A DNA stretch of 64,000 nt, taken from positions 37,287,001 to 37,351,000 of the forward strand of contig NC_068560.1 in assembly GCF_022201045.2 (NCBI RefSeq). Direction: 5' to 3'. Shown in pieces: positions 10,528 to 36,793 of the stretch. Within the stretch, counting starts at the first letter, position 1; each line of letters starts with the position of its first letter. The DNA is from Citrus sinensis. Taxonomy: Eukaryota > Streptophyta > Magnoliopsida > Sapindales > Rutaceae. A program made the translations under genes and the position numbers. The notes beneath the pieces were generated by a model that searched no databases, was not told where the DNA came from, and saw only the letters and a program-made list of their open reading frames with translations.

Positions 10528-11867
10528 CTGCCCTGTACTGTGCTGTTCCCTCTTCCACAGATTCTTCACCTCTTGATTAGGGTTGTTTCACCCTTGCTGG
10601 CTCCTTCACCTGGTAAGCTTTGATTACTTTTTCCTCTCATATTATTTTATATATTTATAAATTTTATCTGTTTCTGCTTGCTATAATCGCGTACAACATT
10701 TTTATTTTTTGTTACATGAAATTGGTTTAGTAAATAGCTGAAGTGATATGAAGCGATTCAGAATTGTTTCTCGTGTCAGTTTCTGTTGGGTAGTTTTTGT
10801 TTGTGCAAGCGAAGCTTGCTTTGACTTGCTATAACTGTTTTGATTTCTACTGTTCTGGTTCTGTTGTAAAGTAAGTGTCGTGTAAGATTGTTTGGTAGGT
10901 GAATTTTGAGTTTCCCATCTTAGGTATTAGCAAGAAACAGTGTGTTTCGGTTTTTGATTGAAGCATAGGGTGTTTGACTAGACGAGAATTTGGATCTTGC
11001 TTTGGGGATTGGAGATTACTTAGCAACTTGGAAGTTGGTACAATTATTCAAGTTTTTTCAATCGTATTTGTAGAACTTATGGCTCCCAACTGGGTTGGAT
11101 ACCAGTCATTTGGATATTTGTTTTGTGTGATGCATATGAGGTAGTAGTTTTTTATGTGGAACTGGAACAGCAGTTACCATGTTTGAGATTCTTATGCTTT
11201 AACTTGACCTATTGACGACGTATAATTGGTTATGCAGTTGTGGTTGTGCTTGGTGATTAGCCAGTCTGAGAATGTTGTATGTGTTTTTTTTCCCGCTTCT
11301 GCATCTTAGGGCTTCTATGAAATTTCTGTCCTGTAGTTACTTACAGTTGCTTGGCTTTGTTGTCCTTATCCATCTTCCATGGAAGGTTATTTCAGCGACA
11401 TTCAGTGTCATGCATCAAGTTTCATCATAGGCTGCCTTGAGTGTGACAGGGTTGATCTTGTCTAAGTCTAGAAGTTGTTAAATCATATAGTCATTGGATT
11501 GTTGGGTTTCCTTCACATGATGATTATATTGTCACATATCAATGTTTCCTGTGCAGGGATTGGCAGGATTTGTTTGGGCTTCTGATGTCAATTTTTTTTT
11601 GGTAATGTCTTTGCAATCATCCTCCACCCCGCCCATCCACATCCTTCATATCTCTCTCTCACACACACAGATTTTGGTTATTGCCTGAAACATGAAGGAA
11701 ATCTTGTGCATATTGCAAGAATGAAATCTGAGTCCCCTTTTGTACTGTGAAAAGCAGGATATTTTCCATGAAAATTAACATTTAATTATGCTTATTTGAC
11801 TCGGCGTTGTACATTTAGTTGAGTAGCATATCTGTTATTAGCAAATTCAGCTTTTTGTGCATCACAA

Positions 11868-12993
11868 ATGGATGACGGTGGGCATCGTGAAAATGGAAGA
11901 CACAAAGCAGATCAGTATAAAGCAGCTCAGGGACAGGTATGTTGAAGAAATTCTGCATAAACAATGTGGTTTAACGTATCACATTTTGCAATGTAAGCTT
12001 TTTGCATATGAGATCCTCTGTCTACTGACAATTCTTTCACTGATGTTGCCGCAGTGGCTCATGCATCACCAACCATCAATGAAACAGATAATGACCATTA
12101 TGGCTGAGAGAGATGCAGCTTTACAAGAAAGAAATTTGGCTATTTCTGAGAAAAAGGCAGCTATTGCAGAGCGAGACATGGCATTCTTACAGCGAGACAC
12201 AGCCATTGCAGAGCGAAACAATGCTATTTTGGAACGAGACAATGCCATTGCTAGTCTTCAGTATCGAGAAAACTCCTTGGGTGGTAATATGTCATCATGT
12301 CCGCCAGGATGCCAAATATCACGTGGTGTGAAGCACATGCACCATCCACAGCAGCATGTACATCAGCTGCATCACGTAAGTGAAGCTGCTTACTCAAGGG
12401 AAATGCACACAGGTGATGCCCTCCCAGTGTCTCCTGGCGCTTCCGAGGCTGCAAAGCCACGGCGGTATAAACGAGCAAAAGAGCCCAAGGTGTTGTCACC
12501 TAATAAGAAGACTGCAAAATCTCCTCGGAAGGTGAAGAGGGAGAATGAGGACCTGAACAAGGTCGTGTTTGGGAAGCCAAGTGAGTGGAAGAGTGTGCAA
12601 GATTTGGATGGTGGAGATGATGATGTAAACAAACAGTCAACAGCATCAAAGTCTGATTGGAAGGGTCAGGTATTGGGGTTGAACCAGGTTACGTTTGATG
12701 AGTCAACTATGCCACCACCTGCATGCTCATGCACTGGGGTATTAAGGCAGTGTTATAAGTGGGGAAATGGGGGATGGCAGTCAGCATGTTGCACAACCTC
12801 CTTATCAATGTATCCGCTACCAGCAGTTCCCAACAAGCGGCATGCCCGAGTGGGTGGGAGAAAGATGAGTGGAAGTGCTTTTAACAAGCTTCTTACCCGG
12901 CTCGCAGCTGAAGGCCATGATCTGTCACATCCAGTTGATCTAAAGGATCATTGGGCCAAGCATGGAACAAACCGCTACATTACAATCAAGTAG
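11868..12993 (+). CDS. BPC4: BASIC PENTACYSTEINE GAGA-binding factor, class II (BPC4/5/6)
   Basis: Plant GAGA-motif DNA-binding transcription factor that recruits chromatin regulators in the nucleus. Exons 11868-11936 and 12055-12993 give 335 aa. The start [13 protein letters not shown] is the family N-terminus. Residues about 36-93 form an alanine/charged coiled coil built from repeated AERD/AIxERN units, the class II dimerisation domain. A Lys-rich stretch in the middle is the nuclear signal. Residues 243-335 are the BPC DNA-binding domain with all five cysteines (CSC, C, CC) and the usual end NRYITIK. A leader intron from 10613 to about 11850 is likely. The 118-nt intron can be retained without breaking the downstream frame, because a second ATG at 11872 reads through it. 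The symbol is by class and by its bZIP29/30-like neighbour, and BPC5 or BPC6 are alternatives. Confidence 0.95.
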
Positions 12994-13925
12994 ATTTTAA
13001 GATACCGATTCGGATGGAGGAATTTGGAATCTCACTGTAATGGTAAGGCATGATTTTGCTGGAAAACAAGAATCATAAATAGCCGCCATGAGGATTGTTA
13101 GGTATGGGTGTTTCATTTTTCATCCCATCTCTCTACTCACCATCACGGTATCACCATTTTTGTTGTCAACTGTATTAGTTTAATGATATTTAAGTTCAAT
13201 ATGTGTTGTTGTACTGAAGCTATCCTGAACGACTCTAGATAATTGTAAAGATCTGTATCTCGAAATCTTGTTATGTATGAACAAAAGTGTTGTATAAAGT
13301 TATCCATGGTCATTTGATTGTTCCAAGTTATCTACAGGATTGACACTCAAAAAGCTCTTTTAATGTCCTCGTATTTATGCCAAATAAAATCAAAATCAAA
13401 ATCAAAATAAATTGTTCATTTTGTAGAAATTGTTGGAATTAGGATGAGATATATTATCATTGATGTATTTACTTTATCTTAAAATTAAAATAAATTATTA
13501 CATAAAATGACTTTAAAATTATTATCATTATTAATTATAATTATCATTATTCAAAATAATTATTGTTAATAATAATACAATTATCAATTTATCACCATCA
13601 TCAATAGATCAATCAATCAATAGTATTATTATTATTATTATTATTGTAAAAATTATTGTTATCATTAACAATAATTCCAAAAAATAATAATAATAATAAT
13701 TCAATTTATAAAAAAATTAAAATTATAAAATTAATGAACGAGAACATTCCCAATCGTACCAACCCTTCTCATGGGATCAAATTCTTATTTCCTAATTCGA
13801 AAAACACGTGGTCCTGTATACTTCATTCTTATGCCCTGTAACTACTATTCATTCAAATAGGCAAACACCATTCCTTTCAATTCCGAATTTCAATTTTCCC
13901 AATCAGAGAGAGGAATCGGGGAAGT
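12994..13925. other. BPC 3' UTR and AT-rich spacer
   Basis: Contains the likely 3' UTR to about 13320, then AT-rich simple sequence with ATT/AAT microsatellites near 13630-13700. No gene was seen. Confidence 0.45.
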
Positions 13926-13934
13926 AAACCCTAA
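13926..13934 (+). promoter_or_regulatory. Telo-box on plus strand
   Basis: AAACCCTAA, followed within a few bases by a second partial copy (CTAAACCC). Telo-boxes usually lie near the transcription start of plant genes for translation and growth. It sits 28 bp before a small ORF at 13962. Confidence 0.45.
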
Positions 13935-13961
13935 AGCCTAAACCCACCATTAATCTACTAA

Positions 13962-14057
13962 ATGTTTGACCCGTCCCTGACGACTTTAACTTGTTTGTTT
14001 TTGTTCGCCGGTGCTGTTATCTTCTTCATATTAGACATTGTAGCGTTCAATAAATAA
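13962..14057 (+). CDS. Candidate 31-aa membrane microprotein
   Basis: A short ORF starts MFDPSLTTL and continues as one hydrophobic segment (about residues 10-28) before ending in VAFNK and a stop. It begins 28 bp after a telo-box (13926-13934), which argues for a real plus-strand transcript here. I do not recognise a family. The length and single helix would suit a small membrane subunit, but this is only inference. It converges with the minus-strand snoRNA cluster, whose last member ends at 14123. It could be a chance ORF. Confidence 0.3.
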   Translation: MFDPSLTTLTCLFLFAGAVIFFILDIVAFNK

Positions 14058-14122
14058 GAAAATAAAAATATCGAACAGTGAAGCAGAACAACAACAGAAT
14101 CAATGCTTGGCGATGAAGATTT

Positions 14123-14218
14123 ACAGTGTTTATGTCAGATTAAAAAGAAATGTCAGCACAGATAATCAGCCAGGGATAACTGTATTATTATTGATTTCTC
14201 GTCATCCATAAACACTGT
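14123..14218 (-). ncRNA. Box C/D snoRNA, 25S rRNA guide (snoR38-like, copy 1)
   Basis: On the minus strand the ends form a perfect 12-bp terminal stem (14207-14218 with 14123-14134). Directly inside it are box C GATGACGA (14206-14199) and box D CTGA (14138-14135). An internal D' CTGA (14169-14166) is preceded by the guide CAGTTATCCCTG, complementary to 25S rRNA CAGGGAUAACUG in the peptidyl-transferase region. A C'-like TGCTGACA lies between D' and D. Yeast snR38 and plant relatives guide a 2'-O-methyl-G in this rRNA segment (known family). Box C departs by one base from TGATGA. Confidence 0.82.
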
Positions 14219-14308
14219 CAAATTTTCTGAAAAGGAAAATAAAATTGAAACTTCGGCAAATAAAAATTTTATGACAGCACAAATCAAAAGCTAAAAAACA
14301 TGGAATAG

Positions 14309-14405
14309 AAAAGCCTCAGACCGTCCTAGTTCATGAGTTTCAACATTAACGCAAGTGAGAACACCCGCAGTCTGTCAACCATTCCAATGTCGTCATCGGC
14401 CCCTT
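14309..14405 (-). ncRNA. Box C/D snoRNA, candidate 18S rRNA guide
   Basis: On the minus strand box C is GATGACGA (14397-14390) and box D is CTGA (14319-14316). Flanking bases can form a GC/GU stem (GGGGCC with GGCTTTT). The sequence immediately upstream of D, ACTAGGACGGT, complements 11 nt of 18S rRNA, ACCGUCCUAGU, recalled from the conserved plant 18S sequence. The D+5 rule points to the U in ACCGU. The spacing of about 70 nt between boxes is normal. The family name was not recalled. Confidence 0.7.
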
Positions 14406-14471
14406 TTTCTAATAACAAAACAAAAAACATCCTGAAAACAAAATGTAAAATTATTAAACTTTGCATCATAC

Positions 14472-14556
14472 AGTGGTGTCAGAGTTTAGAAATATCAGCA
14501 GAAATAAGTCAGACAGGGATAACTGTATAATTCATAATTCTCATCATCCACGAGTT
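14472..14556 (-). ncRNA. Box C/D snoRNA, 25S rRNA guide (snoR38-like, copy 2)
   Basis: On the minus strand box C is GATGATGA (14548-14541), the D' box CTGA lies at 14512-14509, a C'-like TGCTGATA follows, and box D CTGA is at 14482-14479. The guide CAGTTATCCCTGT before D' matches 13 nt of 25S rRNA, one more than copy 1, and the fifth base from D' selects a G in ACAGG. The terminal stem is short (GTGG/CCAC). It has the same guide as copy 1 but different flanks, so it is an old duplicate rather than a recent one. Confidence 0.82.
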
Positions 14557-14616
14557 TTACAATAATTTTTAAAAAAAAATTTAAAAAAAATTTAAGAAAA
14601 CAGTTTGAACAATAAT

Positions 14617-14713
14617 GAGGCATCAGATCTTCCTATTCAATGCATTTTAGAATCATAGCACCCAAAACAGAGTCTGGGCATTCAACAAATCGGCATATTC
14701 ATCATTTGACCCC
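14617..14713 (-). ncRNA. Candidate box C/D snoRNA, target unknown
   Basis: On the minus strand a box C AATGATGA (14706-14699) and a D box CTGA (14626-14623) are about 70 nt apart. The flanks GGGTCA and TGCCTC pair with one mismatch. It lies first after the promoter in the same orientation as the three other snoRNAs. I could not match the sequence upstream of D to rRNA from memory, so this is the weakest member. Confidence 0.45.
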
Positions 14714-14852
14714 GTCAAATTCTACACAAAACATGTTCATAAAAGAAACAAGAGAAGAGGGGGGGAAAAAAAAAGAGAAAAAGAGGCATTTGCGACAGCA
14801 ACTACAGGAACTGAAACAAGAAAGTAGAAATAAGAGAGACGGCTTAAATGAG

Positions 14853-15043
14853 CTAGGGTTTTAGAATCGAACTCTAGCCTCCAGGTGCCATTTTATAGGC
14901 AGGGTTTTCTTGGTCTCGAGTCTTTTTGCCTGGCTTTTGGGCTTTAATCCGACGGCCGAGATGTTGGATTCGAAAGCTGCAGGCGTAATGGGTTTACGAG
15001 GCGATGTTGGGCCTAGTCTTGTGATGCCCGCAACACTTGGGCC
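14853..15043 (-). promoter_or_regulatory. Site II / TATA / telo-box promoter of the snoRNA cluster
   Basis: Reading on the minus strand, site II motifs come first, as (A/G)GCCCA (plus-strand TGGGCC at 15038-15043 and 15008-15013, TGGGCT at 14938-14943). Then come TATAAAAT (14897-14890) and a telo-box AAAACCCTAG (14862-14853). The first snoRNA begins about 140 bp further. This site II plus telo-box combination is the known promoter type of plant snoRNA and ribosomal-protein genes. Confidence 0.72.
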
Positions 15044-15926
15044 AGGTCGGTAAGAGAGGGAAGCTCTTCGATGAATTCCAATCATTTTCACTTTCTAAAT
15101 AACGTGCGTTCTATTTCCACAGTTATTTAACTGCCACAGCTACTATGCTTGATAATTTCAATGTAAATTCACAATTTTATTATTGTTATTATAGTTTAAT
15201 CATAGCCTTATTGGAAACTCCAATGTATCCTACTCTTAGTCAACTCAAAATAACTTCGAAGAATTAGGAGAAAAAAAAAAGTATAGTCAAAAGTCAAGAC
15301 ATCAACCAAGAAGTATAATTTGCAAATAAAAAAATTGATAAATTTGTAATCATACAAATTACCCCCTTTTTTTTTAATCTATCAGTGCAATATTATTCCC
15401 AAAAAAAAAAAAAGATTCATTACAATAAAATAAAGGATAAAATCTACGGCGGCGACGAAGGAAAACAGATTCCCACACCAAAGTCCAAACAAAAACCGCG
15501 TATATGTGGCATATTCTAGAATTATAGATTTAAAAAAATTTAAAAAAAAAAAAAAGCGAAAGAAATTTATTTAGTTTAAAGAGGAAAGTGAAGGAGTGAG
15601 CAAAGCCAAAGACAAAAGACGGTGTGGGGTGAGTCTTACTCTTAAAAATCCAATCTTGTCCTACACGAAACCCTTGTGCTTCTCTCGGTAATATTGAGGT
15701 TTCACAGATTTTTTATTTATTTAATATTTCTAATTCCGGCAGTTTTTGTAAATTTTGGCGTGATTACCGCCATATTTGCTTTCACAAAATCTCCCCTCTC
15801 AGATTCACTTTCCATTCTCAGCTCTCATTTGCCGTGTACGGACATCTTCTAAACCGACCATTCGGGTTTTGTTTTTTAACTTTTAAAAATAAATAAATAC
15901 TTTGTTTTGCTTTGATTTTACAAAAT
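15044..15926. other. Spacer and bZIP 5' UTR
   Basis: Divergent region between the snoRNA promoter and the bZIP gene. It holds A-tracts near 15395-15415 and 15535-15560. The bZIP leader probably starts after about 15600. No gene was seen. Confidence 0.4.
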
Positions 15927-15974: not shown

Positions 15975-16010
15975 TTTACAAAGCCTGTGACTGTTTACAG
16001 TGCAAGTCAA

Positions 16011-18310
<2,300 letters not shown>

Positions 18311-36039: not shown

Positions 36040-36545
36040 GAGGTGGTATTAGCAGAAGAGCTCAACCAAGAGCCCACAAGCCCAGAATCCACAGTCAATC
36101 AGCCCATGGATGAAGTTCACCATGAACCAGTGCAAGATAATCCACGGCCCAAACGAAAAAAGAAACTTCCAGACTGGTTAAGAGACTACGTCGTTTAGGA
36201 TGATTCATGAAAGTGCTTTGCTTGGCTGCGTTTATTTCGGATTCCTTTTTGTTGTTTTCGGTTGCGTTGTCAAAATTAGTTATTTTCAATTTCTGTTATA
36301 TACTGCTGAGCTTTGTTGTTTTTGGAGAGCATGAAATGAATGAACAATTTTCTTTCTCTCTCTGACTCTTCCTTCTCATTCTCAAATCTCTGAGATCCCT
36401 TCTCTGGAGCAAACACTCGCTCGAAGTAGTGGTAGTTTCGATATTGCTCTCGGTTTCACGAATTAAGAGCGTATCACTATTACTGCTAAAGTTCATTGGG
36501 AGCCATGGCCAATGTCCATTATGTGTGTTCAAAATTTTTGGATTC
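36040..36545 (+). mobile_element. Decayed Ty1/copia-type LTR retrotransposon fragment (fossil)
   Basis: A short piece resembling the segment between integrase and reverse transcriptase of copia polyproteins (PKRKKKLPDWLRDYV) is followed by LTR-like DNA, a degenerate primer-binding-site-like motif near 36500 and a gag-like start. The order is rearranged and most of the element is absent. It is broken and old, and its boundaries are approximate. Confidence 0.42.
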
Positions 36546-36793
36546 ATTGTTGTGAACTCGATTATCTAAGAGCTGATGAGTACTGCGGATTCACTAATAT
36601 TCCATCCTTTGCGTAATTTTACAAGATTGCCCAAAGGGTCCTATCTATAGGCTATTTCGGAAATAATCCTTTACAACCAACCCTCCTTGTAATATTAATT
36701 AGATATTTTGGTTGTGCTCAAATTGAGAAACTTATTCATTCCTGTGCCTTTTCCTTTATTATCATTTAGGGTGTGTTCCTTGCCATAAGGCTA

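Follow-up and report, generated by a model that had tools for sequence, protein, structure and literature searches.

Four box C/D snoRNA genes are found on the minus strand at 14128-14705 of the window, which in this text means the whole 64-kb stretch of Citrus DNA that was analysed, and each of them is a gathering-level match to an Rfam family. Along the minus strand the units follow each other in the order snoR64a, snoR38 copy 1, snoR20a and snoR38 copy 2. Judging from its sequence, the locus is very probably one polycistronic gene for box C/D snoRNAs, intergenic and independent, under a TeloSII-type promoter of its own. An independent intergenic cluster with its own promoter had been claimed in an earlier, sequence-only reading of this DNA, and such a cluster is the best reading of the locus in view of four units in three Rfam families, guides whose geometry falls on sites methylated in Arabidopsis, the promoter motifs, and the fact that no host ORF was found.

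The cluster is an ordinary plant snoRNA cluster, in that the locus is new and both the families and the promoter type are known. It adds one more example of the known TeloSII layout of snoRNA genes and is conceptually unsurprising. Its annotation is useful in that annotation of protein genes only would leave the stretch 14123-15043 blank, and the cluster is a probable source of guides for three rRNA methylations that are known in Arabidopsis.

The four snoRNA units

The units, their boxes and their guides are given below in the order in which they would be transcribed, with the gathering cutoff of each Rfam family beside its bit score.

14620-14705, minus strand: snoR64a, with the Rfam RF01163 match at 14620-14701 (70.4 bits, cutoff 45)
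14705-14699 and 14626-14623, minus strand: C box ATGATGA and D box CTGA of snoR64a, from the box scan
14636-14628, minus strand: snoR64a guide, 9 nt, to LSU rRNA, from the pairing test
14472-14555, minus strand: snoR38 copy 1, Rfam RF00213 (60.0 bits, cutoff 45)
14547-14541, 14512-14509 and 14482-14479, minus strand: C box ATGATGA, internal D-type CTGA and D box CTGA of snoR38 copy 1
14525-14513, minus strand: snoR38 copy 1 guide, 13 nt, to LSU rRNA, from the pairing test
14313-14400, minus strand: snoR20a, Rfam RF01193 (54.8 bits, cutoff 42)
14396-14390 and 14319-14316, minus strand: C box ATGACGA and D box CTGA of snoR20a, from the box scan
14330-14320, minus strand: snoR20a guide, 11 nt, to 18S rRNA, from the pairing test
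14128-14213, minus strand: snoR38 copy 2, Rfam RF00213 (58.8 bits, cutoff 45)
14205-14199, 14169-14166 and 14138-14135, minus strand: C box ATGACGA, internal D-type CTGA and D box CTGA of snoR38 copy 2
14182-14171, minus strand: snoR38 copy 2 guide, 12 nt, to LSU rRNA, from the pairing test

That the minus strand carries four C/D units had been claimed from the letters of the sequence, and all four were recovered both by Rfam and by a box-and-stem scan. As a covariance-type check, the Rfam 15 models were run over the whole 64-kb window at gathering thresholds. Exactly four matches reached this level, all of them on the minus strand and all in the cluster; in this 64-kb search their E-values range from 3.6e-09 to 2.5e-06, and each of the four units thus has its own match above the gathering score. 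Against the Rfam families snoR38 (RF00213), snoR64a (RF01163) and snoR20a (RF01193), all units clear the curated score along the whole length of the model, and the guide beside the D or D' box in the family alignments is retained in Citrus. Outside the guide and the boxes the Citrus units have drifted from these families, and snoR38 occurs twice in one cluster. A laxer Rfam scan of 13500-15700 returned 14 extra matches, all below their own gathering scores; 12 of the 14 are C/D families that overlap or border the same four units, one is an H/ACA family and one a miRNA family. A SNORA24-like H/ACA match at 15414-15500 scored 24.1 bits, with the cutoff at 40, and was taken as chance.

The box-and-stem scan makes no use of Rfam and searched the whole window for a C box followed 55-110 nt later by a D box, with at least four pairs at the ends. 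On the minus strand its four matches are the four units of the cluster, and on the plus strand it gave three matches, all outside the cluster and without Rfam support. These three matches, together with the shortness of the boxes themselves, speak for chance matches of short boxes in place of snoRNA genes. Such a reading is extremely improbable in view of the Rfam E-values, of four matches on one strand within 600 bases with none elsewhere in the window, and of a guide geometry that falls on sites reported as methylated in Arabidopsis (PMC8053127). A box scan of 14000-15050 on both strands found no fifth C/D unit, and units with degenerate boxes would escape such a scan.

C and D boxes are present at the ends of all four units, the C boxes of snoR20a and snoR38 copy 2 (ATGACGA) being one change from RUGAUGA. 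Terminal pair runs of 5, 4, 7 and 7 were counted for snoR64a, snoR38 copy 1, snoR20a and snoR38 copy 2, respectively, with small offsets allowed. Folding recovered the end stem of the second, third and fourth units; the stem of the first, snoR64a, was not recovered. Of the four units, snoR38 copy 2 has the lowest fold z-score (-2.54; 4/200 shuffles at least as stable), followed by snoR20a (-1.67; 15/200) and by snoR38 copy 1, whose value is unremarkable (-1.13; 28/200). The fold of snoR64a is no better than that of its shuffles (+1.17; 179/200). Box C/D RNAs are mostly unpaired, and the mixed z-scores therefore provide neither strong support nor contradiction.

ARAGORN found no tRNA in the window, and there is thus no indication of a tRNA-snoRNA dicistron. 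An A+T-rich imperfect palindrome at 14555-14586, in the gap from snoR64a to snoR38 copy 1, is probably simple sequence.

Guides and rRNA targets

Pairing was tested for the large subunit on the human 28S stretch printed in PMC12477938 and for the small subunit on the eight Ipomoea 18S probes printed in PMC11508114, so that neither target is Citrus rRNA. These printed sequences were chosen after viral contigs had given 0 matches to a eukaryotic LSU or SSU stretch, and bacterial and archaeal genomes 0 matches to the LSU stretch. Both snoR38 copies pair with one common LSU site, over 13 nt in copy 1 and 12 nt in copy 2, and in each copy it is the same G that stands opposite the fifth base upstream of the internal CTGA. 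The guide of snoR20a pairs over 11 nt with 18S and has a U of the target opposite the fifth base upstream of its D box. These lengths agree with the 12-13 nt guides to 25S and the 11-nt guide to 18S that the sequence-only reading had claimed. The target of snoR64a is an addition, as the first unit had been left without a target and no family names had been given. This unit pairs over 9 nt with the LSU, the corresponding base facing a U that is located 68 nt downstream of the snoR38 site in the human 28S stretch; the first base of its guide, beside the D box, is unpaired. Two further 8-nt matches to the 18S probes lie off the guide position and were taken as chance.

Matched to the same rRNA pieces, shuffled units equalled the best guide match in 0/100 cases for snoR38 copy 1, 0/100 for snoR20a, 1/100 for snoR38 copy 2 and 5/100 for snoR64a. 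With five of 100 shuffles as good, the snoR64a guide is weak when taken alone, and its assignment rests on the family match and the 68-nt spacing. Arabidopsis RiboMeth-seq data link SnoR38Y to 25S G2816, SnoR64 to 25S U2884 and SnoR20.1 to 18S U1013 (PMC8053127). The target positions predicted for the Citrus units agree with those listed for these three Arabidopsis snoRNAs, including the LSU spacing, since the distance from 2816 to 2884 is likewise 68 (PMC8053127). The predicted fifth-base targets of units 1-4, which are U, G, U and G, would by family be in line with U2884, G2816 and U1013.

Alignment of the two snoR38 copies gives 65 identical columns out of 89. They have in common the core of the guide and both D-type boxes (D and D'), and their C boxes are one base apart. 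Retention of the guide core and the D/D' boxes despite this level of identity suggests selection. The same comparison bears on the possibility that some units have decayed and that snoR38 copy 2 or snoR64a is non-functional, which would be compatible with an independent cluster for the other units. In snoR38 copy 2 the C box carries one change and the guide ends one base short of the internal D-type box, while the guide of snoR64a is short and its stem weak. However, both units score above the gathering threshold, and snoR38 copy 2 still has both its D-type boxes, while its guide is 12 nt long and its fold z is the lowest of the four units. The two snoR38 copies, moreover, differ in sequence and yet share the guide core and D/D' boxes. 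Decay of either unit is very unlikely.

Promoter motifs and presumed expression of the cluster

The following motifs are located upstream of the first snoRNA.

15038-15043, plus strand: site II motif TGGGCC (GGCCCA when read on the minus strand)
15008-15013, plus strand: site II motif TGGGCY
14938-14943, plus strand: site II motif TGGGCY
14892-14897, minus strand: TATA box TATAAA, the sole minus-strand copy in 14000-15700
14854-14861, minus strand: telo-box AAACCCTA, located 30 nt past the TATA box and at or just after the presumed transcription start

Three site II motifs, a TATA box and a telo-box had been placed upstream of the units by the earlier reading, and all were located, at 14854-15043; the three site II motifs and the one telo-box lie within 340 bases of the first snoRNA. 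The whole window contains 50 site II motifs, and about 0.2 would be expected per 261 bases. In 2000 first-order Markov sequences of 261 bases, fitted to 14701-15100 and hence to a stretch that contains the motifs, at least three site II motifs occurred in 5/2000, a telo-box in 106/2000 and both in 0/2000. Loose pairing of the two motifs is common: at 16 of the window's 20 telo-box loci a site II motif lies no more than 1 kb away. For this reason loose pairing was rejected as proof of a promoter. The 1 kb preceding the first snoRNA contains both motifs, which is the TeloSII criterion, and this is weak on its own. It is the tight arrangement, and not pairing within 1 kb, that counts for the promoter. 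Three site II motifs within 200 bases of a telo-box are found at the cluster only (1/20), one is found at 2/20 loci and none at 17/20. Denser groups of site II motifs occur elsewhere, with four in 250 bases near 36.1 and 38.2 kb.

Independent TeloSII clusters of Arabidopsis and rice are described with site II, TATA box and telo-box upstream of intergenic snoRNA units, as in Citrus (PMC3022908; PMC4660826). TeloSII elements are placed upstream of the TATA box in PMC4660826, whereas the Citrus telo-box lies downstream of it, in the presumed leader, which fits the statement that telo-boxes occur mainly within the 5' UTR of genes (PMC3022908). In its sequence the cluster also resembles sno-lincRNAs such as lncCOBRA1, which is transcribed from between genes, carries C/D units and has a TeloSII promoter (PMC9175010). 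lncCOBRA1 differs in having two snoRNA domains and has been studied as a lncRNA (PMC9175010).

Telo-box and site II promoters drive host genes too, and intronic snoRNA loci are reported as frequent in rice (PMC3022908). The four snoRNAs might be intronic in an unannotated host gene, coding for a protein or a lncRNA, which would own the TeloSII promoter and release the snoRNAs after splicing. The leader contains a candidate 3' splice site, a TTTCAG ending at 14811. Against a host gene, no minus-strand ORF of at least 70 aa was found between 12632 and 14861, although small spliced exons or a non-coding host would escape the ORF list, and Pfam gave no match for the minus-strand ORF that overlies the promoter. 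Taken together, these two results give no sign of a protein host gene, and an intronic origin of the four snoRNAs is very unlikely.

For an independent snoRNA gene, RNA polymerase II would be expected to start about 30 nt past the TATA box at 14892-14897, driven by the site II motifs and the telo-box. A single precursor of about 0.75 kb would then be cut between the units and trimmed to snoRNPs, the ends of which would be set by the terminal stems and boxes. The mature RNAs would guide fibrillarin to 2'-O-methylate the equivalents of 25S G2816 (both snoR38 copies), 25S U2884 (snoR64) and 18S U1013 (snoR20). The sequence itself shows to which Rfam families the units belong, where their boxes lie, that the guides pair with conserved pieces of rRNA, and which motifs the promoter has; transcription, processing and methylation of the cluster are outlined here as inferred from established knowledge of the snoRNA family.

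Telo-boxes and site II groups were also seen at other places in the window. Two adjacent plus-strand telo-box runs, TAAACCCTAAA and CCTAAACCC, are found at 13925-13945, about 180 bases past the last snoRNA, and the sole site II motif within 1 kb of this pair is at 12952. Four minus-strand site II motifs lie within about 80 bases at 36071-36151, with a telo-box at 36765 (minus strand). A cytochrome P450 ORF (34798-35724, minus strand; Pfam E 2.5e-36) is located downstream of this site II group, and an 83-aa minus-strand ORF without a Pfam match lies between the group and the telo-box at 36765.

Neighbouring genes and conservation

The cluster is flanked by two genes on the opposite strand.

11857-12993, plus strand: BPC/BBR (GAGA_bind) ORF, Pfam E 1.3e-111
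15987-17382, plus strand: bZIP gene, divergent from the cluster

About 1.1 kb separates the end of the BPC ORF from the last snoRNA, and the BPC gene is tail to tail with the cluster. On the other side, the bZIP domain is found in the ORF 17095-17382 (plus strand; Pfam E 3e-09). No Pfam match was obtained for the ORF 15987-17024 (plus strand; first ATG at 16011), which is, by inference, the first exon of the bZIP gene. If the locus is undescribed, it is so solely by lying where it does, with the BPC gene on one side and the bZIP gene on the other. The titles and opening lines of abstracts listed in the literature search include no published account of this locus and no paper linking the snoRNA cluster with the neighbouring BPC or bZIP genes; catalogues of snoRNA clusters lay outside that search.

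Arabidopsis bZIP29 and bZIP30 are listed as AT4G38900 and AT2G21230, and the adjacent tags AT4G38910 and AT2G21240 as BBR-BPC genes. With the Citrus genes as putative orthologues and adjacency read from the Arabidopsis tag numbers, this suggests that the bZIP-BPC gene pair is old. The cluster could itself be an old resident of the BPC-bZIP spacer (the bZIP gene perhaps being of the bZIP29/30 type) that was kept across many rosids, with a divergent promoter region through which, in dividing cells, snoRNA production and the bZIP gene are coupled. This is unlikely. Of the 68 clusters examined in a rice survey, 10 are reported to be conserved beyond rice, in some plants at least, and the majority not to be (PMC5122169). 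The site II motifs of the Citrus cluster are located about 1 kb before the ATG at 16011 of the ORF 15987-17024.
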